DNA of 64,000 bases from Rouxiella sp. S1S-2 (GTDB lineage: Bacteria > Pseudomonadota > Gammaproteobacteria > Enterobacterales > Enterobacteriaceae): the NCBI RefSeq assembly GCF_009208105.1, contig NZ_WFKL01000001.1, positions 2,976,001 through 3,040,000 on the forward strand. The letters are read 5' to 3'. The translations under genes and the position numbers were made by a program. This document shows positions 7,695 to 34,647 of this stretch, piece after piece. The notes below the pieces were generated by a model. The model was not told where the DNA came from. It saw only the letters and a list, made by a program, of their open reading frames with translations, and did no database searches. Position 1 is the first letter of the stretch. Each line of letters opens with the position of its first letter.

Positions 7695-10249
<2,555 letters not shown>

Positions 10250-16865: not shown

Positions 16866-19800
16866 TCATTCCTTATCGGAGGGTTGAGTGCCCGAAGCGG
16901 GCGTTAAGGGTTGAAGAGATTGACGACGCAGTGCCCGACGCTGCACCAGCAGCCAGGCAACGGGGATAACTAACATCGACAGCAGCGGCGCCGTTATCAT
17001 GCCGCCGACCATCGGCGCGGCAATGCGCTGCATCACCTCTGAGCCGGTTCCGTGGCCCAGCATGATGGGCAGCAGACCGGCCAATATCACCGCAACGGTC
17101 ATGGCTTTTGGACGAACACGCTGCACCGCACCTTCGCGGATTGCCGCCAGCAGCAGCGCATGACTCAGCGTTTCTCCGGCCTGCAGTCGTTTGTTCAGCG
17201 CTTCTTTCAGATACATCAGCATCACCACGCCAAATTCGGCTGAAACGCCCGCCAGCGAGATAAATCCAACGGCGGTGGCGACTGAAATAGCGTGCCCGAG
17301 GACCCAAATCAGCCAGAATCCGCCAATCAGCGCGAAGGGAATGGTCAGCATCAGCAGCAAGGCTTCTGAAATTGAGTTGAAGGTCAGGAACAGCAGCACC
17401 AAGATAATTGCCAGCGTGGCGGGAATGACCGTTTTTAAGGTGGATTCAGCGCGTTGCAAATACTCGAACTGCCCCGACCAGGAGAGCGAATATCCCGCCG
17501 GTAGCGCCACCGCTTTCCCTACCGCCGCCTGCATATTGCGGACCGCGGTTTGCAGGTCTGTGTTGCGCAGGTCAACATAAACGTAGCCCGCCAGACGAGC
17601 ATCCTCGCTGCGGATCATCGTGGGTCCGTCGGTAACACTCAGCCTAGCGACATCGCCCAGCTGAATTTGCGCCCCGCTGGCCAGCACCATCGGCAATTGA
17701 CGCAGTTTCTCGACTGAATCGCGCACTTCCCGTGGATAACGCACATTGATTGGGAAACGCGTGCGGCCATTTAGCACCTCACCGACGTTTTCACCGCCAA
17801 TGGCAGAGGCAATCACGTCCTCGATGTCACCCACCGCTAAGCCGTAGCGCGCCGCCCTCACTCTGTCGATAGCGACGTCGATATATCGCCCGCCGTTCAG
17901 CCGCTCGGCAAACGCCGACGTCACGCCACTCACCGGACGTACGGCGGCGGCAACCTGATCGGCGATCGTGTCGATTTGCGCCAAACTCGGGCCAGAGATA
18001 CGGATACCCACTGGCGTTTTGATACCGGTTGAGAGCATATCCAGACGGTTGCGGATGGGCGGTACCCACACGTTTGACAGGCCGGGAACCTGCACAATCC
18101 GGTCCAACTCGGCCACCAGTTTTTGAGGCGTCATTCCCTGTCGCCACTGGGTACGCGGCTTGAACTGGATCATGGTTTCAAACATCTCCAGCGGCGCGGG
18201 ATCGGTGGCGCTGTCTGCTCTCCCCGCTTTGCCAAACACCGTGTCAACTTCCGGCACCGTTTTAATAAGCCTGTCGGTAACCTGCAGCAGCTGAGCGGCT
18301 TTTTCCGCCGACAGACCTGGCAGTGCGGTCGGCATATACAGCAAATCACCTTCATCCAACGGCGGCATAAACTCCCCGCCCAGTTGCGAGAGCGGCACAG
18401 CGGTCAGCCCGAGCAGTACCAGGGCAAGCAACAGCGTGGCCCACGGATGGTTCAACGCTTGCTCCAGCACCGGCCGGTAAATACGAATTAAAAACCGGTT
18501 AAGCGGATTAGCGTTTTCATGAGGAATACGTCCACGGATAAGCCAGCCCATCAATACCGGCACCAAGGTAATGGAAAGCAGCGCCGCCGCCGCCAGCGTG
18601 TAGGTTTTGGTGAGCGCCAGCGGGCTAAACAGCTTGCCCTCCTGCCCCTCGAGTGAAAACACCGGAATAAACGACAGCGTGATGATTAGCAACGAGAAGA
18701 ACAGCGCAGGCCCTACCTCAACCGCCGAGTCGGCAATCACCTCCCACCGCTGTTGGCCGGTAAGCACTTTGCCCTCATGCCTTTCAAGGTGTTTATGGGT
18801 GTTTTCGACCATCACAATGGCAGCATCAACCATGACACCAATGGCAATCGCGATGCCGCCGAGCGACATCAGGTTGGCATTAACGCCCTGATAATGCATG
18901 GCAATAAAAGCCGCCAACACGCCGACCGGCAGCGCAAGAATGGCCACCAGCGCACTGCGGAAATGAAAAAGAAACAGCGCACAAATAACCCCGACCGAAA
19001 TAAACTCCTCAATCAGTTTGTCGGTCAGGTTATCGACCGCGCGATCGATAAGCTTTGAACGGTCATAAGTGGTCACCACCTCCACGCCGGGCGGCAGTGA
19101 CTTTTTAAGCTCGGCCAGCTTGTCCTTAACGCCATTGATTGTCGCCCGCGCATTTTTGCCGGATCGCATAATAATCACCCCACCGGCCACTTCGCCCTGA
19201 CCGTTAAGTTCGGCGATACCGCGACGGATTTCAGGGCCAATTTGAATACGCGCGACATCGCCCAACAACACCGGCGTTCCGTTGACGTCGCTGCGCACTA
19301 CCACCTGACGAAAATCCTCCGGCGTGTGCAGATAGCCATTGGTTTTAACGATGTAGTCCGCTTCGCCCATTTCCAACACCGAGCCGCCAGTCTCCTGATT
19401 CGACTTGCCTAACGCGGTGGTGATGTCGCTTTGCGTGATACCAAAGGCGCGCATTTTATCGGGATCCAGCACCACCTGATATTGCCGCACCATCCCCCCC
19501 AGAGACGCCACTTCCGAGACATTGGGCACCGTTTTAAGCTCAAACTTCAGGAACCAGTCATTTAAGGCGCGCAGCTGACCTAAGTCATGCTGACCGGTTT
19601 TGTCTACCAGCGCATATTCATAAACCCAGCCTACGCCAGTGGCATCAGGCCCAAGCGACAGCGTTGCACCTTTCGGCAGGCGGCTTTGTACCTGATTGAG
19701 AGACTCAAGCACGCGGGAGCGCGCCCAATACTGGTCAGTTTTGTCGTCAAATAGCACATAAATGAAGGCATCGCCAAAGGATGACCAGGCGCGGATTGTT

Positions 19801-20039
19801 TTCGCACCGGGCACGCCAAGTAGCGTGGTGGTTAAAGGGTACGTGACCTGATCCTCCATAACCTGCGGGGCTTTACCCGGCCATGAGGCTTTGATAATCA
19901 CCTGAGTGTCGGATAAATCCGGCAGCGCATCGAGCGGCGTTTGCCTCAGGGAATAAATACCCCACGCCAGCAGAAAAAGTGTGCCGATGACCACCAGTAA
20001 ACGGTTATTGATTGAGGCGCGAATAATACGTGCAATCAT
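16866..20039 (-). CDS. cusA: CusA, heavy-metal RND efflux transporter
   Basis: A 1057-residue HME-RND pump (E. coli CusA 1047). It begins [27 protein letters not shown] and contains [35 protein letters not shown], the HME-type transmembrane motif with its acidic residues. The periplasmic region has Met-bearing segments ([33 protein letters not shown]) like those carrying the Cu/Ag relay methionines of CusA. It exports Cu(I)/Ag(I) through CusB and CusC to the outside. The start is the ATG overlapping the cusB stop by four bases (ATGA). Confidence 0.95.
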
Positions 20040-21589
20040 GGTTTCGGCCCGCCCACAGCTGTCATGCGGGTCAGTTGCCACCCGTCACCGTCCGCGATGA
20101 AGCTGAAATTCACCTTGTCACCTTGTTTGAATGCCTCAAACTCGGCCGAAGCAGGTTTTTTATACATCATGGTCATCGCGGGCCATTGCAGAGCCGGTAC
20201 CGCCTCATGCGAAAGCGTGATGCTGTCGGGCGTGACCTGTTCGATGACGCCGGTAGATTGATAGGTTTTAATGCGCGCAGTGTTATCCACGCCGGGGTGT
20301 TGGCCTACAGCACTGACCGAACCTTGCGTCGGGGTATCGTTTACCGCCGCTTCGGCACCGTCGATGCGGGGCATAACTGACTTTAGGCTCGCTTCGGAGT
20401 CGATCAAGAATTGCCCTGAGGCCACGACCTGTTCCCCGGCGTGCAGGCCGCTCTCAACCTCAGTGTCGTCCCCCACTTCGCGCCCCAACGTGACATGGGC
20501 AGGTTGCAGACGACCGTCGTCATTTCTCACAATCACGACCGTACGTTTACCGGTCGAAATAATGGCTTCGGAAGGCACCAACAGGCCCAACTTGCCCGCA
20601 GATTTCGTGAGCTGTACCCGCATTAGCATGCCCGGCACCCACTCATCGTTGGCATTGTCGATAATGAGCCGCGCCTGTAGCGTCCTGCTGCTGCCGTTAA
20701 TTTGCGGCAAGATTTGCTGAATTTCGCCGTGCACGGTTCTGTTTGGCTGATTGGCGGGCGTGGCGACAACCTGCATGCCAACCTGCACCTGAGTTGCCAG
20801 TGCCTCCGGAATGTCAATCACCAACCACAGCTTGCCCAACCCGTTTACCTTGGCCAGCGTTTGTCCGGGTGCCACCATCGCGCCATCGCGCACGTTCAAC
20901 TCTCTGACAACGCCGTCACGCGGGGCCGAAATCAACAGGTTATTCTGCACCTTACCGGTTTTAGCTAGCGCGGTGATAAGCTCGGCGGGAATCGACAGAG
21001 CGCGCATTTTAGCCTTGGAATCATTGAGTATTGCCGTGTCGAGGCCGCCGCGCTTCAACGCCAGATATTCCTCCTGCGCCGGTAGCCATTCGGGTACAAA
21101 CAACGAGGCAATCGGATCACCACGATGCACCCGCTGCTGCGGCGCATTGGCGTAAAGGCGGGTGATATAGCCGGTCGCCCGCGTTTGAATCACCTCGGCC
21201 AGCGATTCATCAAACTGCGTAGTCCCGATCACCTCAAGGCGGGTTTGCACTTCTGTTTGGCGCACGGTGGCAAAGCGAATGCCCAGGTCCTGCTGCATCG
21301 CGGGGTCAATCGCCAGTCCCGGACGTTGATTGTCCTGGGCATATACCGGCACCAACGGCATATCCATAAAGGGGGATTTACCGGATTTATCAAAATGCTG
21401 CTGTGGCACCATCGGATCATGCCAATAAAGCACTTTCTGTCCGGCTGAGGGCAACGATGCCGTATCCGCCACCTGCGGCACTGATGGCTGCGCCGAGACG
21501 ACGTAGCGCCCGGCGAAATAGCCTCCCGCCACCAAAATCATCGCGCAGGCGACGCTCGAAAGCGTGAAAATCACCGATTTATTTTGCAT
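20036..21589 (-). CDS. cusB: CusB-type adaptor with a fused C-terminal CusF domain
   Basis: A 517-residue membrane-fusion protein. An N-terminal signal anchor is followed by the heavy-metal-binding motif [23 protein letters not shown] (about residues 55-77), the lipoyl/barrel-sandwich and beta-barrel domains ([20 protein letters not shown] to [31 protein letters not shown]), and from about residue 430 a complete CusF-like OB domain ([33 protein letters not shown]) that keeps His, Trp and both Met ligands. Adaptors bridge pump and channel. The fusion puts a chaperone module on the adaptor in addition to the free CusF. It overlaps cusC by 11 bp and cusA by 4 bp. Confidence 0.93.
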
Positions 21590-22880
21590 CTGCTGGCACT
21601 CCTGAGGTGGCCATCAGAGCGGGCGGAAGAACTTGGTATTCCAGCTGCGCCCACGACAAAGCCACCTCCTGCTGTAGTGCAAGCAGAGAGAGGGTGGCCT
21701 CTATTTTTTCTCGCCGGGCGGCAAATACCTTGCTGAGTGCGCCATTACCCGCGCGATAATCGGCTTCGGCCAACTGCACTTTTTGCGTTTCCAGTGGCAA
21801 AAGTCCGTGCTGTAACAGCGCAATACGCTGTTGACCTAACGTTAACTGCGAGGAGAGATCGGCGATGTTGGCCTGGATTTGTCGCTGCTTGTCGAGAAAT
21901 AACTCACGGGCGCGCGTCCCTAATGCCGCATTCGCCTCAACGGCGCGGTCCTGTTTATTGCTGCTGTAGACCGGCAGCGGAATACTCACTCCCACCGAGA
22001 TCATATTCGTTTTCGGGGCACTGCGGTTTTGATAATCCACTTCCCAGGTCCAATTGGGTGAACGGTCACTGCTGGCCACGGCGGTATTGGCATCGGCCAG
22101 CGAAATATCTGCCGAGGCGGCAATCAGTTCGGGCTGTCGAACAGTAAGCTGTTGCAGACTCAAGCTGGCGACGCTGCTTTGTAACGGCGGTAAGCTACCC
22201 TGCACACCGTCGGCATCCACACCGGTCCAGCGAGAAAGCGCAATGAGTGCGGCCTGATAACGCTGCTGCGCCTGCAAGCGGATAATTTTTTGCTGCGTCA
22301 GTTGAGACTGCACCTCAACCACGTCATTGGACGTTGCATTGGCACCGCGATAAGAGGCACGGGTGGCCGCTATCTCACTGTCCATTTGGCTAATCAACTG
22401 GTTATAACTTTCCAACGTGAGTCGCGCATAGTAGGCCGAAAGCCAGGCCGAGGCGGTTTGGATACGTAAAGCGGCAAGATTACTGAGATAGCTGGAATGG
22501 GCGCTGTCGACCTTGCGCTCACCCGCAGCAGTGGCGAGGCTGCGCTTTTCTCCTGACACCCACTCCTGCTCAATACCCATGCGTTGCATGGTCATGTCAT
22601 CATCGCTGACGCTTAAAGGATGACCTCCATCGGCAGGAAGATTATCGATACCGGCTTTTAATACTGGGTCGGGAAGTTGCCCGGCCATCACAGTTTCAGC
22701 CTGGCTGGCGCTCATCAGTGAACGATCGGCAATCAACGCTGATGAGTGATTCATGGCGGCCTGTAGTGCAGTATTAAATGAAATGTCGCTGGCCCAGGCA
22801 GAACCTGAAGCGAAGAAACTCATTACAACAATCGGAACTAAACGCGGCGATAAAGGGCGCGTTTTAAAATATAAAGACAT
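21579..22880 (-). CDS. cusC: CusC/TolC-type outer-membrane efflux channel
   Basis: A 433-residue outer-membrane-factor protein with a signal peptide (VVMSFFASGSAWA) and two long alpha-helical repeats (SFNTALQAAMNHSSALIADRSLMSASQAET, then KQRQIQANIADLSSQLTLGQQRIALLQHGLLPLETQKVQLAEADYRAGNG). It is the first gene of the cus operon, with AGGAG six bases before the ATG. No lipobox Cys is seen at the signal cleavage region, unlike E. coli CusC; this branch resembles CzcC-like channels from metal operons. It forms the exit duct for the CusBA complex. Confidence 0.88.
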   Translation of the reverse strand: MSLYFKTRPLSPRLVPIVVMSFFASGSAWASDISFNTALQAAMNHSSALIADRSLMSASQAETVMAGQLPDPVLKAGIDNLPADGGHPLSVSDDDMTMQRMGIEQEWVSGEKRSLATAAGERKVDSAHSSYLSNLAALRIQTASAWLSAYYARLTLESYNQLISQMDSEIAATRASYRGANATSNDVVEVQSQLTQQKIIRLQAQQRYQAALIALSRWTGVDADGVQGSLPPLQSSVASLSLQQLTVRQPELIAASADISLADANTAVASSDRSPNWTWEVDYQNRSAPKTNMISVGVSIPLPVYSSNKQDRAVEANAALGTRARELFLDKQRQIQANIADLSSQLTLGQQRIALLQHGLLPLETQKVQLAEADYRAGNGALSKVFAARREKIEATLSLLALQQEVALSWAQLEYQVLPPALMATSGVPADAK

Positions 22881-23644: not shown

Positions 23645-24325
23645 CTAGCGAGCTGACTCAGGCACCCACGGCCCCTGACGTTTTATTGATGGAAATCCCG
23701 CCGTCAGGATGCGCAACTCGGCATCACGCGGGGTATTATCCCCCTGCCCCTGAATGGGGACAATATCCTGCGGGCAGGCTGAAAACGCCACATAGCAGTC
23801 CATCTCCGCCTGCAATATGATGTAGTCACCCGGACGCGTCACCGTTGGTAACGTCTTCAACGTGCGCCCATCCGGCTGAACCTGAATGTTCATAAAAATA
23901 TTAAATGATGCCAGGTTACCGTGCGGCAGTGTTACACCCAACGCTGCCATCCCTTCAAACAAATTGTCGTGGCAGTTACGGTGTGGTTCGGTGCAACCCA
24001 GCAGCTCATAGCGACGCGCATCGCACGCGGCCATGAAGGTGTCGTGCACCCCCGGAGAAGTGTCTGCCACCAGCGTCAAAATCGGATGACGCTGGCTGGT
24101 AATAAAGCTGTCGCCAACCTGCGGGTTAAGCCGCTGATTCCACACCCGCGTGGCTTCCATGCACATATATTCACTGACATCACTGGCGTTATAGGCCCAA
24201 CAGTCCACCACCTGCGTGCCGTGCAAATTAACCACCTGCACCGCTTCACCCTTGGCCAGACGCACAGCTTTACCGTGGCGCGCCGCAATTAACTGAATGT
24301 CACGATGCTCAAATTCAGCCGACAT
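23645..24325 (-). CDS. DUF1989 / urea-carboxylase-associated-type protein (copy C)
   Basis: A 226-residue member of the DUF1989 (UAAP) family. Family motifs are seen: VVNLHGTQVVDCWAYNASD, SQRHPILTLVADTSPGVHDTFMAACDARRYELLG, then PHRNCHDNLFEGMAALGV, and near the end AFSACPQDIVPIQG. The conserved Cys/His/Asp set (HD, HRNCxDN) suggests metal or small-molecule binding, but the function is not established; known relatives accompany urea/guanidine carboxylase operons. It is the last gene of the operon, 14 bp after a permease gene. No carboxylase or allophanate hydrolase is in the window. Confidence 0.85.
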   Translation of the reverse strand: MSAEFEHRDIQLIAARHGKAVRLAKGEAVQVVNLHGTQVVDCWAYNASDVSEYMCMEATRVWNQRLNPQVGDSFITSQRHPILTLVADTSPGVHDTFMAACDARRYELLGCTEPHRNCHDNLFEGMAALGVTLPHGNLASFNIFMNIQVQPDGRTLKTLPTVTRPGDYIILQAEMDCYVAFSACPQDIVPIQGQGDNTPRDAELRILTAGFPSIKRQGPWVPESAR

Positions 24326-24339
24326 ATTTTCTCTCCTGA

Positions 24340-25005
24340 TTAGTGTTGCATACCGCGACGATAGCGCGTCATGCGTTGTTCAAAATAGCGTGCCAGCCAG
24401 TCAATAACGCTGGTCAGCAGCCAGTAACAAAGCGCGACTGTCAAATAAATCTCCAGCGGCGCATAAGTCGTAGAAATCGCCTGCTTCGCGGCATACATAA
24501 ACTCCTGTACCGAGACAATCGACAGCAGCGCTGAATCCTTGATAAGCCCAATCATCAGTCCCGCCAGCGGCGACAGCATCTGCGGCAGCGTTTGTGGTAA
24601 CACCACATCGCGCAGCTGTTCGCGCCAACTCAGCCCTAATACGCGGCAGGCTTCCCACTGCCCTGGCGGCAACGTTTCAACGGCAGAGCCAATAACCTGG
24701 GCAATATAGGGCGCGTAATAAAGTGTTAACGCCAGCACACCTACCTGCGGTGAGGTAAAGGTGATGTTGTACTCGGGTAAAACGAAATAGAGCAGATAGA
24801 TAACCACCAGCAGCGGCAACGCCAGCGTCAAACTGGTGTAGAGATGCAACAACCGTCGCAAAAAACGCGGGGCGCGTTTAAATGCTATTGCCATTATCGT
24901 GCCCCACAGCAGCGAGCAGAACGCAGCCAATGCACAAAGCTTCAGCGTAGAAATCATGCCAACGCCCAGCGAAGGCAGTGAGTCGATAACCGCATGCCAA
25001 TCCAT
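24340..25005 (-). CDS. Polar-amino-acid-type ABC transporter permease (HisM-like)
   Basis: A 221-residue inner-membrane permease with about five membrane segments and the family's EAA loop (ETLPPGQWEACRVLGLSWREQLRDVVLPQTLPQMLSPLAGLMIGLIKDSALLSIVSV). Its ATG overlaps the stop of the preceding permease by one base (TAATG). Together the two would form the heterodimeric channel for the binding protein encoded upstream. No ATP-binding subunit is encoded in this operon. Confidence 0.9.
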   Translation of the reverse strand: MDWHAVIDSLPSLGVGMISTLKLCALAAFCSLLWGTIMAIAFKRAPRFLRRLLHLYTSLTLALPLLVVIYLLYFVLPEYNITFTSPQVGVLALTLYYAPYIAQVIGSAVETLPPGQWEACRVLGLSWREQLRDVVLPQTLPQMLSPLAGLMIGLIKDSALLSIVSVQEFMYAAKQAISTTYAPLEIYLTVALCYWLLTSVIDWLARYFEQRMTRYRRGMQH

Positions 25006-25658
25006 TAGGCCGTCCTCCGTTTCGCCTGAAGATGACGCGCCAAGCCAATCAGCGGCAGTGCAATCAGCAGATATCCTGCCGACACCAGCAGCAGCACCTG
25101 CGTCGCCTCGTAGGTGCGGGCAATCACGATTTGCCCTGCATAGGTCAGTTCGGTAAGGGCAACCACCGAGGCCAGGGGTGTGGTCTTAAGCAAGATAGTA
25201 AACTCATTGACCAGCATCGGCAGGCTTGCACGCATCACCTGCGGATTGATCACGTACCACCACGTCAATAAACGGTTTAGCCCCAGCGTGCGCGCCGCCT
25301 CACGCTGTCCACGCGTGACCAGGCTCTGATTAACCCGCAGAATTTCTGCCACATAAGCCCCGCTGTTACACCCTATGGCCAGCACCGCCGCCAGCATCGG
25401 ATGTCCACCGAGGGCAAGACGTGGCAGGGTAAAAAACACCACAAACAGCTGCACAATTGCCGGGGTACCGCGCATCAAGCTGACATAAAGTCGCCCAAGG
25501 GCGCGCCAAAACCACGCACGACGAAGCTGGAGGAAACAGCCAAGCTGCCCCATCACAAGGCTGAGCAGCGCGGCCTGCACGGTGAGACTCAGCGTCACCA
25601 AGAGTCCATGCCCTAATTCTGGCAGTGCTGCCAGCACCTGTTGATCCAGCCCAAACAT
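25005..25658 (-). CDS. Polar-amino-acid-type ABC transporter permease (HisQ-like)
   Basis: A 217-residue permease with several hydrophobic helices, RGTPAIVQLFVVFFTLPRLAL, and the EAA loop (NQSLVTRGQREAARTLGLNRLLTWWYVINPQVMRASLPMLVNEFTILLKTTPLASVVAL). It is translationally coupled to the second permease (TAATG) and lies three bases after the preceding DUF1989 gene. The substrate is unknown; it is presumably the compound handled by the DUF1989 proteins. Confidence 0.9.
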   Translation of the reverse strand: MFGLDQQVLAALPELGHGLLVTLSLTVQAALLSLVMGQLGCFLQLRRAWFWRALGRLYVSLMRGTPAIVQLFVVFFTLPRLALGGHPMLAAVLAIGCNSGAYVAEILRVNQSLVTRGQREAARTLGLNRLLTWWYVINPQVMRASLPMLVNEFTILLKTTPLASVVALTELTYAGQIVIARTYEATQVLLLVSAGYLLIALPLIGLARHLQAKRRTA

Positions 25659-25661
25659 GCG

Positions 25662-26312
25662 TTATTCCTCGCTAAAAGCCGACAGATTTTCCGCCACCGT
25701 AATCCGCAGCGGAGCCGGTTTATCATTGCCCTCAATACCGGTGCTACAGGCCGCAACGATGAACTGCGTATCCACCACCACGCGGCAGGTAATGCTGTCC
25801 CCCACCTGAGTACGGTTGATTTCCGGCAAGATTTCACCCTCGCGTGTTAAGCGAACGTGCATAAACAGGTTGATAGGATCCGGCAGTTTCGGCACCTCAA
25901 TGCCGAGGCGAGCAAGTTCACGGCTCACGGCGTCAATACACCCTTCTTCATCGTGATAGCCGCGCGCCTTGAGCCAGGCCGTGGTCGAGGCAGGCAGCAG
26001 CAGGTCATGGCGTTTCACGCTGTCTTTGCCAAGCACCATCATCGGGCGACGACGGTTATTTACCAACCGCATACCTGAGCCCAGCAAATAGCTGTTGCTG
26101 AATACGCGAGTGTGATGCACAGACAGCCAAACCGCCGGGTCGGCCATGCTAAAACCGAACAGTGAGGCTACTGCGCCTTCCCCCACTGCGGTAATGCGCA
26201 ACAGTTGGCCACGCAGCACGCGAATAGAGCCGACTTCGCCGGCATTAATATTGACCGGTGCAGCCACCGGTCGTACCTCACTTTCGGCCCATTGATCACG
26301 CATTAACAACAT
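25662..26312 (-). CDS. DUF1989 / urea-carboxylase-associated-type protein (copy B, divergent)
   Basis: A 216-residue DUF1989 protein. Relative to the other two copies its motif is altered: GYHDEEGCIDAVSRELARLGIEVPKLPDPINLFMHV replaces the HRNCxDN segment. The Cys and following Asp are kept, and HDLLLPAS keeps the HD pair. It overlaps copy A by 17 bp, indicating tight co-translation. The pairing of two unlike DUF1989 proteins resembles UAAP1/UAAP2 pairs and may form a heteromer (inference). Confidence 0.82.
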   Translation of the reverse strand: MLLMRDQWAESEVRPVAAPVNINAGEVGSIRVLRGQLLRITAVGEGAVASLFGFSMADPAVWLSVHHTRVFSNSYLLGSGMRLVNNRRRPMMVLGKDSVKRHDLLLPASTTAWLKARGYHDEEGCIDAVSRELARLGIEVPKLPDPINLFMHVRLTREGEILPEINRTQVGDSITCRVVVDTQFIVAACSTGIEGNDKPAPLRITVAENLSAFSEE

Positions 26313-26925
26313 GAGACACCTCCGCGAGATAGCTATTGCTCACCTGGACTTCAATCGGCGTGACCTGCAAACCGTTGCCGGGAATAATATCCTGCGGGCA
26401 GGACGAGACTGCGCAAATCAGGTCACACAGCGCTTCAAACACAATGTAGTCTCCTGCCTTGCTGCTCGGATCAGTCACTTCCATACGGCCATCGGCAGTA
26501 ACCGGCCCGTTTTGGAACAGGTTGAACGGCTCTGGAAGGCTGAAGTAAGTCACACCGTGCGCCTTCATGCCTTCAAGCAGGTTATCTACACAGTTTCGAT
26601 GGCCTTCGACCCCGAAATCGATGCTGAAGCGAGTCCGATCGCAGGCCGGCACGTTGGCATCGTGCACGCCGTTGGTATCGGTCACTACACGCAGCATGGG
26701 GCGATTTTCACTCGACCAAAGCACGTCTCCTGGCTTGAAGAAGATTGAGCGAAGATGTTGACGCGTATGCACCGGCGAGAGTTTTTCATCAAGATTATCG
26801 GCGTAAACTGCCACGAAATCGGCGGCCTGCTGCCCTTCGCTATCAATGACCGTGATAAATTGCCCTTTACTGACCTGAAAGGTTTTGCCGTGACCGGCAG
26901 GCACTGTCAGTGTTGATTGACACAT
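26296..26925 (-). CDS. DUF1989 / urea-carboxylase-associated-type protein (copy A)
   Basis: A 209-residue DUF1989 protein: GQFITVIDSEGQQAADFVAVYADNLDEKLSPVHTRQHLRSIFFKPGDVL, RPMLRVVTDTNGVHDANVPACD, FGVEGHRNCVDNLLEGMKAHGV and AVSSCPQDIIPGNG. The CPQDI segment, shared with copy C, lies near the C-terminus. It is directly after the periplasmic binding protein gene (two bases apart). It is cytoplasmic, without a signal or membrane segment. Its biochemical role is unknown. Confidence 0.85.
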   Translation of the reverse strand: MCQSTLTVPAGHGKTFQVSKGQFITVIDSEGQQAADFVAVYADNLDEKLSPVHTRQHLRSIFFKPGDVLWSSENRPMLRVVTDTNGVHDANVPACDRTRFSIDFGVEGHRNCVDNLLEGMKAHGVTYFSLPEPFNLFQNGPVTADGRMEVTDPSSKAGDYIVFEALCDLICAVSSCPQDIIPGNGLQVTPIEVQVSNSYLAEVSHVVNA

Positions 26926-26927
26926 AG

Positions 26928-27764
26928 TTACTCCTGAGGAATGAAATCGCTTGCAGGCACGGTGAAAGTGGTGCCGAGATACTGTTTTTGCAGCGCAGAA
27001 AGTTCACCGTCTTTCTGCATCGCCAGAATGTGGTCGCTGATGGCTTTATTTAAGCTCAGGTCGTCTTTACGCGTTGCCCACGCCATCCACTGGGAAGGCC
27101 CGACTTCGCCAACCTGCGCCACTTTGTTGGGGAATTTCTTCACTACCGGTGCGAGAGCCGAAATGTCGTCAAACACAAAATCGGCGCGGTGAGTCATGAG
27201 GGTACTCACAGTTTGGTCGAGCGTATCGACGCTGATAATAGTGATCGGTTTCTTGCCTTCTTTGCTCAGAGTGACGTTAAAACCTTTCAGTAACTGCTCC
27301 GGCAAACTGGCGCTTTTTACCGCGCCGCTCAGGCCGGAGAGATCTTCAGGGGTCAATTTTTTACCGCTGAATTTGCTCACGTCACTTTCACGAACCAGTA
27401 CGCCGTTGACCGTTTTACTGAACGGCGTGGTGAAGAGCACTTTCTTCGCCCGCTCGGCGGTCACGTTCAACGATGACCCTTCGGCATTGAACGAACCAGA
27501 AATCAGGCCGGGCAGGATCCCGCTGAAAGCGGTTTTCTGAAATTCCAGTTTCACACCAAGGTCTTTGGCAAACGACTGCATGATTGCCACGCTGTAACCG
27601 GTTATCTCGCCGCTGTCGTTGGTGAACTCATACGGCGGGAAAGTAGGGTCTATACCGACGGTGATTTTGCCACTGCTCTTGATGTCTGAAAGTGTGTCGG
27701 CCTGTGCGGCCATAGCGGCAGTTAGAGTGAGTAAAGTGACTGCCAGCAGTGCTATTTTTTTCAT
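26928..27764 (-). CDS. ABC transporter periplasmic binding protein (polar amino acid type)
   Basis: A 278-residue family-3 solute-binding protein: signal peptide MKKIALLAVTLLTLTAAMAAQA, then SGKITVGIDPTFPPYEFTNDSGEITGYSVAIMQSFAKDLG, the usual ligand-binding opening. The MKK start was chosen over one 18 codons upstream because the signal peptide begins there. It is the first gene of the DUF1989 operon. The ligand cannot be read from sequence; the neighbours suggest a small nitrogen compound. Confidence 0.88.
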   Translation of the reverse strand: MKKIALLAVTLLTLTAAMAAQADTLSDIKSSGKITVGIDPTFPPYEFTNDSGEITGYSVAIMQSFAKDLGVKLEFQKTAFSGILPGLISGSFNAEGSSLNVTAERAKKVLFTTPFSKTVNGVLVRESDVSKFSGKKLTPEDLSGLSGAVKSASLPEQLLKGFNVTLSKEGKKPITIISVDTLDQTVSTLMTHRADFVFDDISALAPVVKKFPNKVAQVGEVGPSQWMAWATRKDDLSLNKAISDHILAMQKDGELSALQKQYLGTTFTVPASDFIPQE

Positions 27765-27881
27765 TATGTTGGTTCCCTGGTGTTGGTGAAATGTCATAAC
27801 AGACAGAGCAGTTTCCATGCCAGTTTGTCAGGCCTAAGTCAGCGAAAAGCGGCGAGCAACTCTTTTTTCTCAGAGAATCAA

Positions 27882-27901
27882 CAAGAAATTAACGTTTCTT
27901 G
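27882..27901. promoter_or_regulatory. Perfect inverted repeat, likely operator of the DUF1989 operon
   Basis: CAAGAAA-N6-TTTCTTG is a perfect 7-6-7 palindrome about 120 bp upstream of the binding-protein start and about 115 bp beyond the end of the RpiR gene. Its place and form fit an operator for the adjacent RpiR-type regulator. Confidence 0.6.
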
Positions 27902-27929
27902 TTTTTATATTTTAGTTTCTTTAGTTTCA

Positions 27930-27970
27930 CAAAAAGGCGTGCAGAGTGAACGCCAAAGGCGAACCCTGCA
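27930..27970 (-). terminator. Possible terminator of the RpiR-type gene
   Basis: On the minus strand GCAG..GTTCGCC-TTT-GGCG..CTGC forms an imperfect hairpin followed by CTTTTTG. It lies 45-85 bp after the RpiR stop and would separate its transcript from the binding-protein operon. Confidence 0.4.
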
Positions 27971-28014
27971 CTTAAAAGGGGAGAAAAACGCCTGCTGCGC
28001 ACCAACGAGGTGCG

Positions 28015-28866
28015 TCACTCGAGTTCATCGAGACTCTGATGCAGGGATTCAACGGTTGCCAGGCGATCATTACTGGCTTTACCCATGCTGCGCGCCACTA
28101 GAGAACAGAGCAGATTACATACGCCCGACAGTGCGACGGTGCTGTCAAAAATCAGGCTGCCGTCTGTTTGGCAACGCAGCACCCAGCGCGCATGCTTGGC
28201 GGGCTTTCCGGCTAGTACATCGGCGATGTAGAGCATTGGCACGTTCAACTCGTCGAGTGCCGCCATTGCCGCCTCAAGCGCAGGCATACGGCGACGCAGC
28301 CCCACGCAAATAACAACATCCTGCGGGCCGAGCGTGGCTAAATGCTCTGCCAGCGAATCGCCGGCGCGCGGCAGAAGGCGGACGTCCGAATGAATATGCA
28401 CCAAGTCACGGTAAATAAGCAGGGCAATAGTCTGACTGTGGCGCCACCCCATTACGACCACGCGCCGCGACGTGGCGATGGCATCAACGCATGACTCCAG
28501 CTGTGCACTCTCCAGCGAACGATAAGTGTTCACCAGATTGGACACCTCTTTCTCAAGATGGCTCTGCATCAGACTGGCGAGCGGAGAGGAACTGGGTGCG
28601 GACTGTAGGTAAAGCGGCGAACCGCTATTTTGCATTTCACGCGCCTGACGACGCGCGGCGTCGTAGTTCTCATAGCCGAGGTGACGGAAAAAGCGTGTAG
28701 CAGTAGCTTTAGAGACGCCGGCACTTTGTGCCAGTTCGGTCGCGGTATTCATCGCTAACTGCCCTGGAGCTGCTAACAACACATCGGCTAGCCGCTGCTC
28801 GTGCAATGAGAGTTGATCCCACTGTTGGCGGATACGGCCTTCTAACGATGCCGTTTTTGCACTCAT
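28015..28866 (-). CDS. MurR/RpiR-family transcriptional regulator with SIS domain
   Basis: A 283-residue regulator. The N-terminal RpiR helix-turn-helix (LSLHEQRLADVLLAAPGQLAMNTATELAQSAGVSKATATRFFRHLGYENYDAAR, residues about 18-72) is followed by a C-terminal SIS domain (RVVVMGWRHSQTIALLIYRDLVHIHSDVRLLP). SIS domains normally bind phosphosugars; RpiR members next to amino-acid and nitrogen-compound transporters are also known. It sits upstream of the DUF1989 operon on the same strand, with a perfect palindrome between them, so it probably controls that operon. Confidence 0.85.
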   Translation of the reverse strand: MSAKTASLEGRIRQQWDQLSLHEQRLADVLLAAPGQLAMNTATELAQSAGVSKATATRFFRHLGYENYDAARRQAREMQNSGSPLYLQSAPSSSPLASLMQSHLEKEVSNLVNTYRSLESAQLESCVDAIATSRRVVVMGWRHSQTIALLIYRDLVHIHSDVRLLPRAGDSLAEHLATLGPQDVVICVGLRRRMPALEAAMAALDELNVPMLYIADVLAGKPAKHARWVLRCQTDGSLIFDSTVALSGVCNLLCSLVARSMGKASNDRLATVESLHQSLDELE

Positions 28867-29169
28867 GGATATTCCCTATAATAGAAAAGTCTCATCCTGC
28901 ACAGAACTCGGCGGGTTGTCATCATGAATTTACATAACTACGTCTACTCCAGCGACGTATAAATCGCCTGCCTCGCGTCATAGATGAATGCCTGCATTAC
29001 TGAGCGTCATTAAGATTTTTAAACACTAAATTAAGAAAAAACTTGATGAGTAAAATTAAAGTTAAACGCCAATAATGTTAATTAATTTAAAATAAGAACA
29101 TTTTAAATAATAAATCTATATATAAACAATACCATCTATCATCCATACAAATGATAGATAGAGACCTAT
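28867..29169. other. AT-rich divergent promoter region with an inverted repeat before the lyase gene
   Basis: This 303-bp stretch between the RpiR gene and the lyase is very AT-rich over its last 150 bp. A perfect 9-bp inverted repeat (ATCTATCAT-N8-ATGATAGAT, 29134-29159) ends ten bases before the lyase ATG, touching the weak AGAGA ribosome site. It may be an operator or an mRNA hairpin that limits translation. No gene is seen. Confidence 0.5.
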
Positions 29170-32049
29170 ATGTCCCCCTTTTGTTTTCGTAAATATCGCT
29201 CATTCGCTTTGCCTTTGCTAATTGTTCTCCCAGTTTCACTGACTCATGCGAATGATATTGGAACGGCGCATTTATCACCGCAGAATAATATTGAGATCAC
29301 TCCTTTTAGCGTTGAACGATCGCACACTCGCTCCGCAATTGAACGTTCGCGCATTCGCTCTAATGCTGAACGTTTGCGTATTCACTCCCGCGGTGACCGC
29401 TCGCGTAATCGCGACGATGCTGAACGTTCGCGTACTCGCCCCCACGGTGAACGTTCGCGCACTCGCTCCCACGATGAACGTTCGCGCACTCGCACCGGCG
29501 TTGAACGATCGCGTACTCGCGCAGGCAGTATTATCTCTAAAGGTAATCTGCAACCGGGTTCCACGTTAGTGTTTGAAATTCGTGACAAAGGTTTTAATAA
29601 TCCCCTAGAGTCCATCCGCCTTAAAATTGATGCCAATAACGCTGACCAATACATTTGGCCACACGCGCTTGCCACTGCAATTAATGCGCAGTCTCTCACC
29701 ACGCGGGCAGGACAAAGAAAGGGAGATACTAATATTCCTATATACAGTGGATATCTGAATGAGGTCTGGGTTCCCAACGATCTGCCGCTTAATTTCACTT
29801 ATCGAATCGAAAATTCCGAGTATCAACAACACAAACTTATTCTCGACCGCCTGACCCAAAACGCTATGGCCAAGAATAACCTGGCTAACGTCAAGAAATG
29901 GCTTGGACTTGAAAAGAATGGCTCATTCAGCGATATCACGTATCCGGATAATAAAAAGCCGCTGGCCGATAACAAGATTGCCAGCCAGCACCTGCTGAGA
30001 GTGCTGGAACTCGCATCTTACGCTCACGAGAATCGTAAAAATTGCCAATCATTAACTGCCGACTGTACGTTTATAAAAGATGTGCAGTCGGCAGCGGTGC
30101 GCGGTATGCTGTTTATTATCGCTAAAAAATATAAATATGATAACTGGTGGTTCTCTTCGATTGGCGATCCACGCAGCGTTGCGCGAGTGGCGCTGTTAAT
30201 CTATCCCGACATTACCCCTGACCAGATGATTAACACTGTCTTACCTTATCTGCGGGTCGCTAACGTTGCCAATGGAGAATATAACTTCGGGGCCAATACT
30301 GTTGACTACGCCTCCATCCAGCAGATGTGGTCCACGCTTGCGCTCAACGGTGGCGTAGCCTCCGACGCCGATCTGAAGAAATTCGATGGTTATCTTCGTG
30401 AAAGCACTAGCTCGCTTGCGGGCCTTGCCGTGGTTCTTGCCGGTAAAGATGTGAAGGGCTGTGAGGGACTTCGCGCCGATATGTCATTTACCTCTCACTG
30501 TGCTCTGGTCAACGGTAAACTGGTTTCGCAAATTTATACTGCGGGCTACGGACAAGTATTTATGGACGGGATCATCTCGGCGCAATATAGCGTTCAGGGT
30601 ACTGATTATGACGTTCCACAGCAAAATATGGACCTGCTCGAACGCTGGCTAGTTGAGGGCATCGGCTGGTCTGGCTATGCGGGTATCACCGATTTTCACG
30701 TCACCGGCCGTGGCCATAGTCGCTCAAGTGGCAGTTTTAACGGGCTGGTAAACAAATTCAGCACACACTTCCTTGCAATGAACCCCAATAGCCCGCGCAA
30801 AGAGATGCTGCTGGAATTACTGCATCGTGGTAAAACCGGTGACGAGTCTGATAATAAGCACTATCGCGGCAATCGCTATTTCTGGACTACCGATAATATG
30901 GCGCACTTTGGTAGCGCCTATTCATCGTCGCTACGCATGGTTTCGAAACGCACTACCACCTCTGAAAGTGGCAACGGCGAAGGGTTGCAAAGCTATTTCC
31001 TTGGCGCAGGCAGCCAGCTAATTACCCGCACCGGCAATGACTACCGTGACATTCAACCAGTATGGAACTGGAAACGCCTGCCGGGTACAACCGCCGAACA
31101 GGACACTCTTGCGCTGCCGTTAAATAATTGGGGAAGGACAGCCTACGGAAGCCATCACTTTGTGGGCGGCCTTACCGACGGCATCCGCGGGCTCGCCACC
31201 ATGGAGCTCGACCGACTCAACATCAAAGGGGCGCGCAAAAGCTATTTCCACTTTGAGGATGCCAATATGAATATGGGGTCAAATATAAATTCCCAGAATT
31301 CAAAGGCGGAGGTGATTACCAGCGTCGAGCAGGCATTGCGTCAAGGCAGCATTATGTACCGTCTTAAGAACAGCACCGTTGAACATTATCTTAATGAGGG
31401 TCAAACCTTGACCTCGGGTGAGATTGTCTGGGTACAGCATAACGGTATCGAATATATCTTCCCGGATACGCAATCGCAAAGCATTACCGTGCAATCCAAG
31501 GCACAGTCCGGCAGTTGGCGTAATCTCAACACCGCGGGTTCGGCGAATACGATGACCAAAGAAGTGTTTAGCCTGTGGTTGAAGCACGGTAAAGGTACAG
31601 CAGGACGTTATTTATATTACGTCCACCCTGCTTCAAACTTCCACGATATCGGAACCTACGGAGAGTCAGATAAGCGAGTCGATGAACTTAAAGTCCGCCG
31701 TGAAAGTTGGTTACACGCCGTTTTGGATACCCGACACAATCTTGGGATGGCCGCCGTCTTTGAGGTCAAAGACGAATGGATCAAGCTGACCAGCGATCTG
31801 GAAGTGAAAACGCCCATGCCGCTGCTGCTGCTGGCGAAACTGAAGGTGAGCCGCGATACCGCTATTACGGTGATCGACCCGACGCAGGATCCAGCCCATA
31901 AAAATGTCTTGCTTAAACTTAAGGGACGTTTCTACTGCTGGCAAAACTGCGAAGTGAAGAGCGTGAGTAATGACAAAACTGAAATCCTCATCAACCTCCC
32001 TCAGGGACTCGAGTTAGGAAAAAGTGTAACTGCGGGCGTGCACCGATAA
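29170..32049 (+). CDS. Secreted polysaccharide lyase family 8 (hyaluronate/chondroitin/xanthan lyase type) with Arg-rich repeat
   Basis: A 959-residue exported protein. The signal peptide ends near THA (residue 27). Residues 49-120 are eight nonapeptides of the type ERSRTRxxx. The remainder is a PL8 lyase: helical (alpha/alpha) domain with NWWFSSIGDPRSVARVALLIYPD, NFGANTVDYASIQ (N376 at the catalytic Asn position), TAGYGQVFMDGI (Y460 at the catalytic Tyr), H443 as candidate catalytic His, and TGRGHSRSS matching the substrate-binding Arg segment; then the beta-sandwich domains. PL8 enzymes cleave acidic polysaccharides by beta-elimination. The His-Tyr spacing differs from streptococcal hyaluronate lyase, so the substrate is open. 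It is monocistronic, with a terminator. Confidence 0.88.
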   Translation: MSPFCFRKYRSFALPLLIVLPVSLTHANDIGTAHLSPQNNIEITPFSVERSHTRSAIERSRIRSNAERLRIHSRGDRSRNRDDAERSRTRPHGERSRTRSHDERSRTRTGVERSRTRAGSIISKGNLQPGSTLVFEIRDKGFNNPLESIRLKIDANNADQYIWPHALATAINAQSLTTRAGQRKGDTNIPIYSGYLNEVWVPNDLPLNFTYRIENSEYQQHKLILDRLTQNAMAKNNLANVKKWLGLEKNGSFSDITYPDNKKPLADNKIASQHLLRVLELASYAHENRKNCQSLTADCTFIKDVQSAAVRGMLFIIAKKYKYDNWWFSSIGDPRSVARVALLIYPDITPDQMINTVLPYLRVANVANGEYNFGANTVDYASIQQMWSTLALNGGVASDADLKKFDGYLRESTSSLAGLAVVLAGKDVKGCEGLRADMSFTSHCALVNGKLVSQIYTAGYGQVFMDGIISAQYSVQGTDYDVPQQNMDLLERWLVEGIGWSGYAGITDFHVTGRGHSRSSGSFNGLVNKFSTHFLAMNPNSPRKEMLLELLHRGKTGDESDNKHYRGNRYFWTTDNMAHFGSAYSSSLRMVSKRTTTSESGNGEGLQSYFLGAGSQLITRTGNDYRDIQPVWNWKRLPGTTAEQDTLALPLNNWGRTAYGSHHFVGGLTDGIRGLATMELDRLNIKGARKSYFHFEDANMNMGSNINSQNSKAEVITSVEQALRQGSIMYRLKNSTVEHYLNEGQTLTSGEIVWVQHNGIEYIFPDTQSQSITVQSKAQSGSWRNLNTAGSANTMTKEVFSLWLKHGKGTAGRYLYYVHPASNFHDIGTYGESDKRVDELKVRRESWLHAVLDTRHNLGMAAVFEVKDEWIKLTSDLEVKTPMPLLLLAKLKVSRDTAITVIDPTQDPAHKNVLLKLKGRFYCWQNCEVKSVSNDKTEILINLPQGLELGKSVTAGVHR
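29314..29529 (+). repeat. 27-bp tandem repeat encoding Arg-rich nonapeptides
   Basis: Eight in-frame copies of a 27-bp unit (start positions 29314, 29341, 29368, 29395, 29422, 29449, 29476, 29503), mostly beginning GAACGTTCGCGYACTCGC. Copies 5-8 are the most alike and copies 1-4 are diverged, as in a minisatellite that grew from one end. Each encodes ERSRTR plus three variable residues. Confidence 0.92.
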
Positions 32050-32273: not shown

Positions 32274-33026
32274 TTAGTGCTGCAAAAATTTCTCGAGGAA
32301 CTGTTTGGTGCGGTCATGCTGCGGATTGGAGAACAAGTCTTTCGCCGGTCCCTGTTCAACTATTTTACCTTGGTCCATGAATATCGCGCGGTCGGCTACG
32401 TCGCGGGCAAAGCTCATTTCGTGGGTGACGATAACCATGGTGCGGTGCTCCAAAGCCAGCGCTTTGATAGTGTTTAACACCTCACCCACCAGCTCAGGGT
32501 CCAGCGCAGAAGTCGGTTCGTCAAACAGTATCACTTCAGGATTCATGGCGAGCGCGCGGGCTATGGCGACGCGCTGCTGCTGGCCGCCTGACAGGCGACG
32601 CGGATAGGCGCTCTCTTTGCCCACTAGCCCAACCTTGGCCAAAAGCTGCCGCGCATAGGCCTCAGCCTTGGCGCGCGATTCACCTTTAACAATCACTGGA
32701 CCTTCTATGATGTTCTCCAGCACAGAACGGTGCGGAAACAGGTTAAAGTTCTGGAACACAAACCCCACCTGCTGACGCAGCTTTCGCACCTTCTCTTTCT
32801 GTTTGCCTATTGGCACGCTGGCATCAATTTCAATATCGCCCACGGTGATGGTGCCAGCGTCCGGAATTTCCAACAGATTAATGCTTCGCAGCAGCGTGGT
32901 CTTACCCGATCCGCTCGGCCCGATAATCGCCACCACTTCACCGGCATTCACCTGCAGGTCGATACCGTGCAGCACCGTTTGACCATGAAATTTTTTGACC
33001 AGCTTTTTCACGTCGATGGTACTCAT
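32274..33026 (-). CDS. tcyN: TcyN, cystine ABC transporter ATP-binding protein
   Basis: A 250-residue ABC ATPase: Walker [10 protein letters not shown] (residues 36-44), Q-loop FQNFNLFPH, signature [15 protein letters not shown], Walker [14 protein letters not shown] and switch His in VTHEMSFA. It powers cystine import with TcyL and TcyJ and closely matches E. coli TcyN (YecC). It overlaps tcyL by four bases (ATGA) and is the last gene of the operon. Confidence 0.93.
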
Positions 33027-33691
33027 GATGGCTCCTGATCCTGACGGTTAACGCGGTCTTCCAACCGATTTTGCAAATAAGACAATAGAGTGGCCAGCAC
33101 CCAATAAATGACCGAGGCGGCCAGATACATGGTGAACACCTCCAGCGTACGCGAGGTCACTAACTGCGCCTGGCGGAACAGTTCGGGCACCTGAATAGTG
33201 GCGGCCAGTGAGGTATCTTTTACCAATCCGATAAAGCTGTTACCCAGCGGCGGCAGCGCGGTGCGAGCGGCCTGTGGGAGCACAACGCGGCGCAGCGTTT
33301 GCCATGAATTCATGCCGATACTGGCAGCGGCCTCCCACTGCCCTTTGTCAATCGACGAGATAGCGGCGCGCAGCGTTTCAGAGGTATAGGCGGCGGTGTT
33401 TAGCGACAGGCCAATCATCGCGGAAGGAATGGGGTCCAGCTCTATGCCGAACTGCGGCAGGCCGTAGTAAATCATAAACAGCTGGGCAATAAGTGGCGTG
33501 CCGCGAAAGATAGACACGTAAAAGCGCGAGAACCACGACAGTGGCCAGAAATGCGAAAGGCGCATCAGCGCCAGCAGGAAGCCCAGTAACAGTCCGAAAA
33601 CCATCCCCCCGAGACTAAGCTCGAGGGTAAACAGGGTCCCTTTTAATAAAAAGGGTGCTGAATCCAGCACCAGTTGGAGACTTTCTTGCAT
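33023..33691 (-). CDS. tcyL: TcyL, cystine ABC transporter permease
   Basis: A 222-residue permease nearly identical in pattern to E. coli TcyL (YecS): [67 protein letters not shown] and the EAA loop [63 protein letters not shown]. The ATG was taken rather than a TTG three codons earlier, by homology. It lies between tcyJ and tcyN; in E. coli dcyD sits between tcyJ and tcyL, but not here. Confidence 0.95.
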
Positions 33692-33703
33692 CAGGTTCAA
33701 ACC

Positions 33704-34507
33704 TTACTTGGTGACGTCAGCGCCAAACCATTTGTCAGAGATTTTCGCCAGCGAGCCGTCTTTCTGCATCTCGGCAATCGCCTTATTAATGGCGGCGACC
33801 AGTTCAGGGTTATTTTTACGTATTGCGACACCAGACTCCTGACGAGCAAAAGGTTTACCTGCAACGGCCAGCGTATCACCGGTCTTTGTAACCAGATCTA
33901 GCGCCGCCAGGCGGTCAACCAGAATGGCATCAATGCGGCCTACGCGCAGGTCCTGGTATTTCGTTGGGTCATCATCATAGGTACGGATATCAACGCCCGG
34001 TTCGTTAGCGCGCAGCCACTGTTCGTAGTTACTGCCTAAACCCACGCCCACTTTTTTGCCTTTCAGGTCATCCGGCGTAGAAAATTTATCTTCGTTGCCT
34101 TTTTTGGTCAGAACCTGAATACCGGAAACAGTATAAGGGGTTGAGAAATCATATTTTTTCTCACGCTCCGGGGAAATAGTGACCTGATTGATCACCACGT
34201 CAATGCGTTTTGACTCCAGTGAGGCCAGCATGCCGTCCCACTTGGTCGGTGATAATTTTGCCTTAACGCCCATATGCTGAGCCAGCGCTTCGGCGAATTC
34301 GACTTCGAAACCGGTCAGTTTGCCGTCGGCACCCTGAAAGCTAAACGGCGGATAAGTCCCTTCCAGCCCGACAATTAACGTGCCGCGCTGTTTGATTTTG
34401 TTAAGAACGTCTTCAGATGCTGCAAAAGATGGACTGACCATACCGGCAGTGAATGTCACCGCCATCGCACCCAGAATCAAACGACGACGCAATTGAGAAA
34501 AAGCCAT
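33704..34507 (-). CDS. tcyJ: TcyJ (FliY), periplasmic cystine-binding protein
   Basis: A 267-residue solute-binding protein with signal peptide (MAFSQLRRRLILGAMAVTF, cleavage near SFA), GTLIVGLEGTYPPFSFQGADGKLTGFEVEFAEALAQHMGVKAK, DGMLASLESKRIDVVINQVTISPEREKKYDFSTPY and DILVDRLAAL-like lobes as in E. coli FliY. It delivers cystine to TcyLN. GAGG lies five bases before the chosen ATG. It is the first gene of tcyJLN and is divergent from lldR. Confidence 0.94.
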   Translation of the reverse strand: MAFSQLRRRLILGAMAVTFTAGMVSPSFAASEDVLNKIKQRGTLIVGLEGTYPPFSFQGADGKLTGFEVEFAEALAQHMGVKAKLSPTKWDGMLASLESKRIDVVINQVTISPEREKKYDFSTPYTVSGIQVLTKKGNEDKFSTPDDLKGKKVGVGLGSNYEQWLRANEPGVDIRTYDDDPTKYQDLRVGRIDAILVDRLAALDLVTKTGDTLAVAGKPFARQESGVAIRKNNPELVAAINKAIAEMQKDGSLAKISDKWFGADVTK

Positions 34508-34647
34508 ACTCACCTCATTCTTTGTTTTAATGGTTGTCATAACGTAGTGTTCGTTACGTTATTTTGATTGAATATAACCAGAAAATCTTAGCATTAATAA
34601 TTATATGTTAATGCCAGAAGTGCGGATCAACTTAATTCTGCCCTGCC

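Follow-up and report, generated by a model that had tools for sequence, protein, structure and literature searches.

What is the role of an operon that encodes three unlike DUF1989 proteins together with a solute-binding protein, two permeases and a regulator? The question is raised by positions 23645-28866 of a 64,000-nucleotide stretch of the genome of Rouxiella sp. S1S-2 (the host; contig NZ_WFKL01000001.1, positions 2,976,001 to 3,040,000). The whole stretch is called the window here, and its coordinates are used unless another sequence is named. DUF1989 proteins are common, annotation routinely calls them 'urea carboxylase-associated', and two activities are known in the family, carboxyguanidine deiminase and trimethylamine N-oxide (TMAO) demethylase. 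The locus was found to be a real, conserved uptake-and-catabolism operon based on three DUF1989 proteins (D1, D2 and D3), which are distinct from the guanidine pathway in sequence, clade, neighbours and control. All seven genes that an earlier note on this sequence had proposed were confirmed. They lie on the minus strand in the order RpiR, SBP, D1, D2, PermA, PermB, D3, read from 28866 to 23645.

28015-28866, minus strand: RpiR-family regulator (HTH_6 and SIS; Pfam, NCBIfam), probable local regulator
27883-27900, no strand: palindrome of 18 bases (arms AAGAAAC and ATTTCTT around GTTA), local form of the conserved GAAACNNNNGTTTC, probable operator
26928-27818, minus strand: SBP, periplasmic solute-binding protein (SBP_bac_3); likely start at 27764, MKKIALL
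26296-26925, minus strand: D1, DUF1989 protein whose metal-site residues are complete; presumed to be the catalytic half of a D1-D2 heteromer
25662-26312, minus strand: D2, DUF1989 protein with the metal site lost, presumed non-catalytic partner; 17-base overlap with D1
25005-25658, minus strand: PermA, amino-acid-type ATP-binding cassette (ABC) permease (Pfam, NCBIfam)
24340-25005, minus strand: PermB, amino-acid-type ABC permease (Pfam, NCBIfam)
23645-24325, minus strand: D3, DUF1989 protein whose metal-site residues are complete; related to DUF1989 proteins that occur beside arginase-family and M20 enzymes

Gene content, conservation and control

The DUF1989 family (PF09347) was matched by D1, D2 and D3 at 173.2, 111.6 and 151 bits against a cut-off of 27, and Pfam assigned the other genes to two BPD permeases, a family 3 SBP and an HTH_6/SIS (RpiR) regulator. 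An SBP_bac_3 binding protein with HEQRo_perm_3TM permeases makes this a polar amino-acid ABC importer, and the TIGR01726 cut-off (NCBIfam) was exceeded by PermA and PermB alike. The cognate ATP-binding subunit is absent from the window operon. Neither an ATPase nor a carboxylase is encoded between 23645 and 28866, as had been noted before, and the intergenic spacing from SBP to D3 (2, -17, 3, -1 and 14 bases) leaves no space in which a gene could be concealed. Because the spacing is so tight, SBP to D3 probably form one transcription unit. The start of D2 lies 17 bases within D1, as would be expected for translational coupling of partner subunits.

Related loci were sought in one genome per species with patterns taken from the window's own D2, so the scan was confined to close relatives. 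It yielded 44 loci: 27 in Enterobacterales (Rouxiella, Rahnella, Pantoea, Erwinia, Enterobacter, Kosakonia, Mangrovibacter, Winslowiella and CwR94), one in Vibrio, three in Pseudomonas and 13 in Burkholderiales (Robbsia, Herbaspirillum, Paraburkholderia, Caballeronia and Collimonas). By tblastn the order D1-D2-PermA-PermB-D3 was collinear in all 44; since the loci had been found through D2 alone, the arrangement is beyond chance, and the neighbourhood survey that the earlier note had proposed thus bore it out. SBP was present in 44 of 44 (partial in L043) and RpiR in 43, L043 starting after RpiR at a contig end. Split matches (PermA in L009, SBP in L028, PermB in L033) could be due to sequencing error. 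A forty-fifth, distant triplet cluster was found on a Palleronia plasmid.

D2 is rare overall. Strong matches occurred in 2 of 398 sampled Pseudomonadota genomes, the host and one member of its family, with two more at 111 bits left unclassed; at E <= 1e-20 it was matched in 5 of 369 genomes of the host's class, the host and four unclassed at 76-100 bits. No title or abstract in the open-licence literature searched described this operon, and the labels of D1-D3 in the sources searched were generic only ('urea carboxylase-associated', 'DUF1989', 'YcgI'). The Palleronia plasmid sequence (L079, 1-8855) also carries, beside the full triplet cluster, a second amino-acid ABC set and genes for an aldehyde dehydrogenase, an NAD(P)-dependent oxidoreductase and a molybdopterin oxidoreductase.

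The gap of 196 bases between the RpiR and SBP reading frames contains the 18-base palindrome, whose pattern, derived from the window, was matched once against 0.09 expected. Upstream of SBP, GAAACNNNNGTTTC was found exactly in 41 of 44 sequences (43 loci and the window; L043 was excluded, its SBP being cut) and with one mismatch in the remaining three (the window, L038 and L040). Random 400-base stretches of the same loci matched it with one mismatch or better in 10 of 807 cases. The host genome contains a single exact copy of the local form, AAGAAACNNNNATTTCTT. With up to two mismatches allowed there were many matches, no commoner than those of a reversed control, and none fell in the host's guanidine operon (310000-328000), its arginase/DUF1989 locus (3620000-3638000) or the tcy genes. 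A carboxylase or ATPase gene tied to the operon by the same palindrome, which the earlier note had named as telling against its proposal, was therefore absent at the sites checked. A stricter form of the palindrome gave one to three sites in each of five other operon-bearing genomes, the operon's own site being included in three. On these patterns the regulator looks, short of proof, to be a local one.

Control by a leader RNA was considered and discarded. At the Rfam gathering level the whole window gave RybB only and no riboswitch, and 27700-29170 gave nothing up to E = 1, while the same library detected the guanidine-I riboswitch at the host guanidine operon; the earlier note had likewise seen no guanidine riboswitch in the leader. 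Sigma-54 promoters were rejected (41 two-mismatch matches in the window against 46.8 expected, no excess over chance), as were sigma-70-type promoters and terminators, which showed no excess over shuffles. Downstream of the operon on the same strand, 16866-22880 holds a heavy-metal efflux set of the resistance-nodulation-division type (CusA/CusB/CusC-like, called by eye from the translations).

The three DUF1989 proteins

The three copies are indeed unlike (D1-D2 23% and D1-D3 35% identity), and the copy described earlier as having an altered HRNC motif is D2; the HRNC codons of D1 lie at 26590-26601. Six metal-site positions were scored in D1 numbering (Asp36, Cys95, His109, Cys112, Cys176 and Asp179). 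All six were intact in 21/21 D1 and 21/21 D3 sequences. In D2, Cys95 was replaced by Ser and both Asp36 and His109 were lost in 21/21 (the alignment being gapped around His109), and Asp179 was lost in 20/21; Cys112 was retained in 19/21 and Cys176 in 20/21, and Arg55, His88, Asp89 and Asn135 were kept in 21/21. Eight D2 sequences, among them Palleronia at 41-45% identity, have unchanging stretches such as HHTRVFSNSY and NRRR, and by this measure D2 is not decaying but strongly conserved despite its lost metal site. It is also predicted to retain the DUF1989 fold: the AlphaFold model (predicted local distance difference test score 81) was matched by Foldseek to 3siy/3oru, with E 1.1e-13 to 3siy and a template modelling score of 0.74.

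A tree was built from 80 sequences, drawn from 19 of the 44 loci, the window, Palleronia, three UAAP1/UAAP2 pairs and 11 other DUF1989 proteins. Each of the five groups lay to one side of a branch. For D1, D2 and D3 that branch had good support (100/99, 100/100 and 100/100), UAAP1 and UAAP2 together made up a separate group, and the 11 other proteins stood beside D3, less well supported (93/75). By inspection, the same groups of hosts come back inside each of the D1, D2 and D3 clades. The deep joins are unsure because of long branches (UAAP1, Palleronia D2 and others). With scores below the model cut-offs given in the last section and 44 of 44 loci collinear, these separate clades agree with the claim that the operon is a conserved unit apart from the guanidine and urea carboxylases. 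The label 'urea carboxylase-associated' is probably misleading for the D1-D3 clade, since its members lack a linked carboxylase and stand apart from the guanidine enzymes.

In the three UAAP pairs, UAAP1 has lost Cys95, Cys112 and Asp36; UAAP2 keeps these three, but aligns without His109 and Asp179. The joining of a live to a dead DUF1989 copy is a recurrent design, as UAAP1/UAAP2 and TMAO demethylase show such pairing too. D1-D2 look like another instance, and by analogy the two would associate physically.

Import, substrate and reaction

The operon as a whole is read here as serving, under RpiR control, the catabolism of a small nitrogen-rich acid. This acid, most likely a carboxylic acid with a guanidino or ureido group, would be taken up and hydrolysed at C-N bonds; we give this model slightly less than an even chance. 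Import would be by SBP and PermA/PermB, powered by an ATPase on loan from a different amino-acid ABC system. D1 and D2 would form a heteromer of a metal-dependent active subunit and a degenerate one, and D3 would be a second active enzyme, probably a homomer. D1-D2 and D3 would hydrolyse C-N bonds in a deiminase-type reaction, giving ammonia and a ureido product; in one Pseudomonas and several Caballeronia/Paraburkholderia that product would then be split to urea by an allantoicase paralog of its own. The likeliest steps of the model, though short of proof, are the heteromer and the guanidino/ureido substrate class. If the model is right, the operon defines a third DUF1989 activity, supplies another case of a dead copy kept as partner of a live one, and offers direct handles on the substrate (the binding protein, the regulator with its conserved palindrome and, in some species, the allantoicase paralog).

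The presence of an ATPase was judged by comparison with the copy in the L042 cluster, matches below 42% identity not being counted. An ATPase gene lies between PermB and D3 in 13/13 Burkholderiales loci (78-84% identical to the L042 copy) and at the same place in the Palleronia plasmid cluster (59%), and in none of the 31 Enterobacterales, Vibrio and Pseudomonas loci. Because two distant groups share the position, loss in the gammaproteobacterial lineage is the simpler reading, short of proof, and on that reading the host operon probably borrows an ATPase from elsewhere. The earlier view that two permeases must borrow their ATPase is thus probably right for the host; the subunit is not foreign to the system, however, being a member of the cluster in Burkholderiales and Palleronia.

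Candidates for the lender were sought in the host. The 21 host ATPases with the greatest similarity to the cluster ATPase of Burkholderiales were examined: permease-type genes adjoin 20 of them, and one is without a permease of its own, so the orphan HisP-type ATPase that the earlier note had suggested looking for does exist (G000:C1:3085309-3086088; L097 4309-5088), with a complete ABC set neighbouring on the other strand. Its orthologs, at 76% identity or more, occurred in only 5 of 14 searched genomes with an ATPase-less operon (the host, R. silvae, two Pantoea and CwR94) and did not track that operon, and it was rejected as a general partner. By eye, the orphan gene is flanked by a flavin adenine dinucleotide oxidoreductase gene and by yeeZ- and hisG-hisD-like genes. 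Another candidate lies within the window:

32274-33026, minus strand: TcyN-type ABC ATPase, one possible borrowed partner (NCBIfam)

It belongs to a complete amino-acid ABC system of the tcyJ-tcyL-tcyN type (32274-34540, same strand, 3.4 kb upstream), whose three genes all scored above NCBIfam cut-offs. TcyN was considered because in Rouxiella silvae (L009) only about 120 bp separate the end of tcyN from RpiR, which follows it on the same strand. A TcyN-type ATPase was near the operon in the window and R. silvae only, the other 30 gammaproteobacterial loci having none in the stretch examined. In the window strain a gene for a polysaccharide lyase of family 8 (29170-32049, 959 residues, with N-terminal ERSRTR-type repeats) stands between the tcy genes and RpiR.

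The best clue to the substrate comes from outside the window, in the company kept by D3 and its relatives. An allantoicase gene lies 3' of D3 on the same strand in 10/44 loci (Pseudomonas sp. NFR16 and nine Caballeronia/Paraburkholderia); two of these copies were tested and scored 413.9 and 448.5 against the TIGR02961 cut-off of 277.9. At least one further allantoicase was found elsewhere in 6/6 searched genomes that carry a cluster copy. Where coordinates were compared (two in Paraburkholderia xenovorans LB400, which has two clusters, and one in NFR16), the non-cluster allantoicase adjoins a ureidoglycolate lyase gene, whereas cluster copies do not. Among 22 allantoicases placed in a tree, the cluster copy of NFR16 grouped with two from Pseudomonas, and the nine from Burkholderiales clusters formed their own clade (99/95), so the gene has been recruited at least twice. 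The addition of this paralog suggests that a ureido product is finished by another enzyme, and it makes doubtful the earlier description of the pathway as self-contained.

D3-like proteins in other settings were taken from the top of the match lists, not as a random sample, and their neighbours are named as in the records (L090, unannotated, was not counted). Arginase-family neighbours were found in the host locus L008 and in Chelatococcus, Salipiger, Mesorhizobium, Caballeronia and Paraburkholderia; M20 neighbours in Klebsiella, Pantoea, Caballeronia and Paraburkholderia, with a carbamoylase 4 kb away in Shinella; and amidase, polysaccharide-deacetylase and cytosine-permease genes in Rhizobium, Phyllobacterium and Nocardia, the last with a PucR-type regulator. 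The Klebsiella M20 enzyme scored 368.8 against a hydantoinase/carbamoylase cut-off of 204, and the neighbour labelled 'cupin' is a PuuR-like regulator. A deiminase would make a ureido (N-carbamoyl) acid for cleavage by carbamoylase or allantoicase, which would explain the allantoicase and much of the arginase/M20 neighbourhood. A carbamoylase (TIGR01879) above cut-off was found in 11/12 operon-bearing genomes searched, a weak co-occurrence since 6/14 control genomes had one too.

Several points weigh against this model. The cluster holds no allantoicase in 34/44 loci, the window's included (in L048 the contig ends after D3), and a genome-wide search of the host gave neither allantoicase nor ureidoglycolate lyase, so a ureidoglycolate-type ending is not general. 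In 44 aligned cluster SBPs (the window, Palleronia and 42 loci) the Arg of a T-x-E-R motif and a DD pair are kept; we take the corresponding Arg and Asp positions of HisJ-type proteins to bind the carboxylate and alpha-amino groups. The ligand may on that account resemble an amino acid more than a simple guanidino acid. In place of this Asp, the SBPs of the Klebsiella, Chelatococcus and Mesorhizobium clusters carry Ser, and the L008 SBP retains Asp. UAAP2, which serves as model for the active half, has nothing aligned with the His109 and Asp179 of D1, so that D1 does not simply copy UAAP2. Finally, the best NCBIfam model for D1 (153.8 bits) and D3 (103 bits) is that of the TMAO demethylase Tdm (NF053776), which breaks a different C-N bond.

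The hydrolytic model can be narrowed to a definite, undescribed pathway, a tentative proposal that we hold to be rather doubtful. The D1-D2 heteromer, with D2 as a conserved pseudo-enzyme, and D3 would convert an imported guanidino or ureido amino compound to a ureide of the allantoate or ureidoglycolate type, with no carboxylation at the cost of ATP; it would be for this ureide that allantoicase was recruited at least twice. One candidate substrate class would be a guanidino analogue of allantoate or ureidoglycolate, for example ring-opened oxidised guanine.

The amino-acid-type Arg and Asp positions kept by the cluster SBPs would also suit uptake and non-hydrolytic processing (by an isomerase, a lyase or amidine transfer) of an amino-acid-like compound, with allantoicase added for unrelated nitrogen salvage, and many operon hosts belong to plant-associated genera. 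This is unlikely, as at least two separate recruitments of allantoicase to the same spot and the recurrent hydrolase neighbours of D3-like proteins are hard to explain by it.

Comparison with known DUF1989 systems

The best solved-structure match for D1, D2 and D3 alike is TM1040_0329 (3oru, 3siy), a DUF1989 protein from structural genomics, which, unlike the operon products, is a single protein and has no function assigned.

Tdm offers another parallel. TMAO demethylase is reported to have a degenerate N-terminal DUF1989-like domain before an active one, with zinc bound by three cysteines (PMC12560246), and D1-D2 would repeat that arrangement as two proteins. D1 and D3 keep three Cys, a His and an Asp that align with Tdm, besides having it as their best curated model. 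A Tdm-type demethylase or dealkylase, in which D1-D2 without GcvT would act on an amine oxide or N-methyl compound to give an aldehyde, is nevertheless distinctly unlikely. D1-D3 are separate polypeptides without any GcvT match and reach 153.8 bits at most against a cut-off of 1100. A Tdm-like locus on an Acinetobacter plasmid has methylamine genes alongside (dimethylamine monooxygenase), and none occurred among the annotated neighbours of the 44 loci, annotation covering part of the genes. The allantoicase, arginase-family and carbamoylase neighbours also do not fit this chemistry.

The guanidine pathway runs through a carboxylase, a heteromeric carboxyguanidine deiminase and allophanate hydrolase (PMC11410670 and PMC12186494). 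Its host version (L007, 310000-328000) has a urea/guanidine carboxylase (TIGR02712, 1793 bits), UAAP1, UAAP2 and a taurine-type ABC importer, with a guanidine-I riboswitch ahead; an allophanate hydrolase lies at 362145-363830. The earlier statement that nothing is present to hydrolyse urea or allophanate therefore holds for the operon and not for the host. The deiminase, CgdAB, was reportedly studied by Schneider in 2020. Like CgdA/CgdB (UAAP1/UAAP2), the operon has two adjacent unlike DUF1989 copies, one of them degenerate, with an ABC importer alongside. It differs in its separate clades, its third DUF1989 protein, its RpiR-type regulator, its lack of the linked carboxylase and guanidine riboswitch present at L007, and its importer, which is of amino-acid type rather than taurine/nitrate type. 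That D1-D2 are a second carboxyguanidine deiminase using the host's carboxylase is very improbable in spite of the shared family and a comparable make-up, in which one subunit is degenerate and the other more intact, because D1-D3 stand outside the CgdA/CgdB group in the 80-sequence tree (with its long branches and just three pairs), because the best operon scores on TIGR03424 (UAAP2) and TIGR03425 (UAAP1) are 125.7 and 79.1 against cut-offs of 284.7 and 205.95, because the host already has a true pair (331.1 and 285.8) with carboxylase and riboswitch, and because a dedicated importer would be odd for carboxyguanidine, which arises intracellularly.

Clusters with a single DUF1989 gene beside arginase-family or M20 enzymes, for which no description was found in the open-licence literature searched, are known to us from plasmids of Klebsiella, Pantoea, Caballeronia, Paraburkholderia, Chelatococcus, Salipiger and Mesorhizobium and from the host. 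In Klebsiella pneumoniae and Pantoea dispersa plasmids (L080, L081) the order is SBP, permeases, ATPase, M20 enzyme, DUF1989 and cupin regulator, with transposase genes nearby, and a D3 query matched 19 Klebsiella plasmid records, in one of which gene order was read. The host cluster (L008, C1:3620000-3638000, at 4488-9337) has a GntR-type regulator, SBP, arginase-family enzyme, permease, ATPase and D3-like DUF1989 protein. These clusters differ from the operon in having one DUF1989 protein instead of three, an ATPase of their own, linked hydrolases and other regulators; a D3-like DUF1989 protein and a transporter of the same class are common to both.

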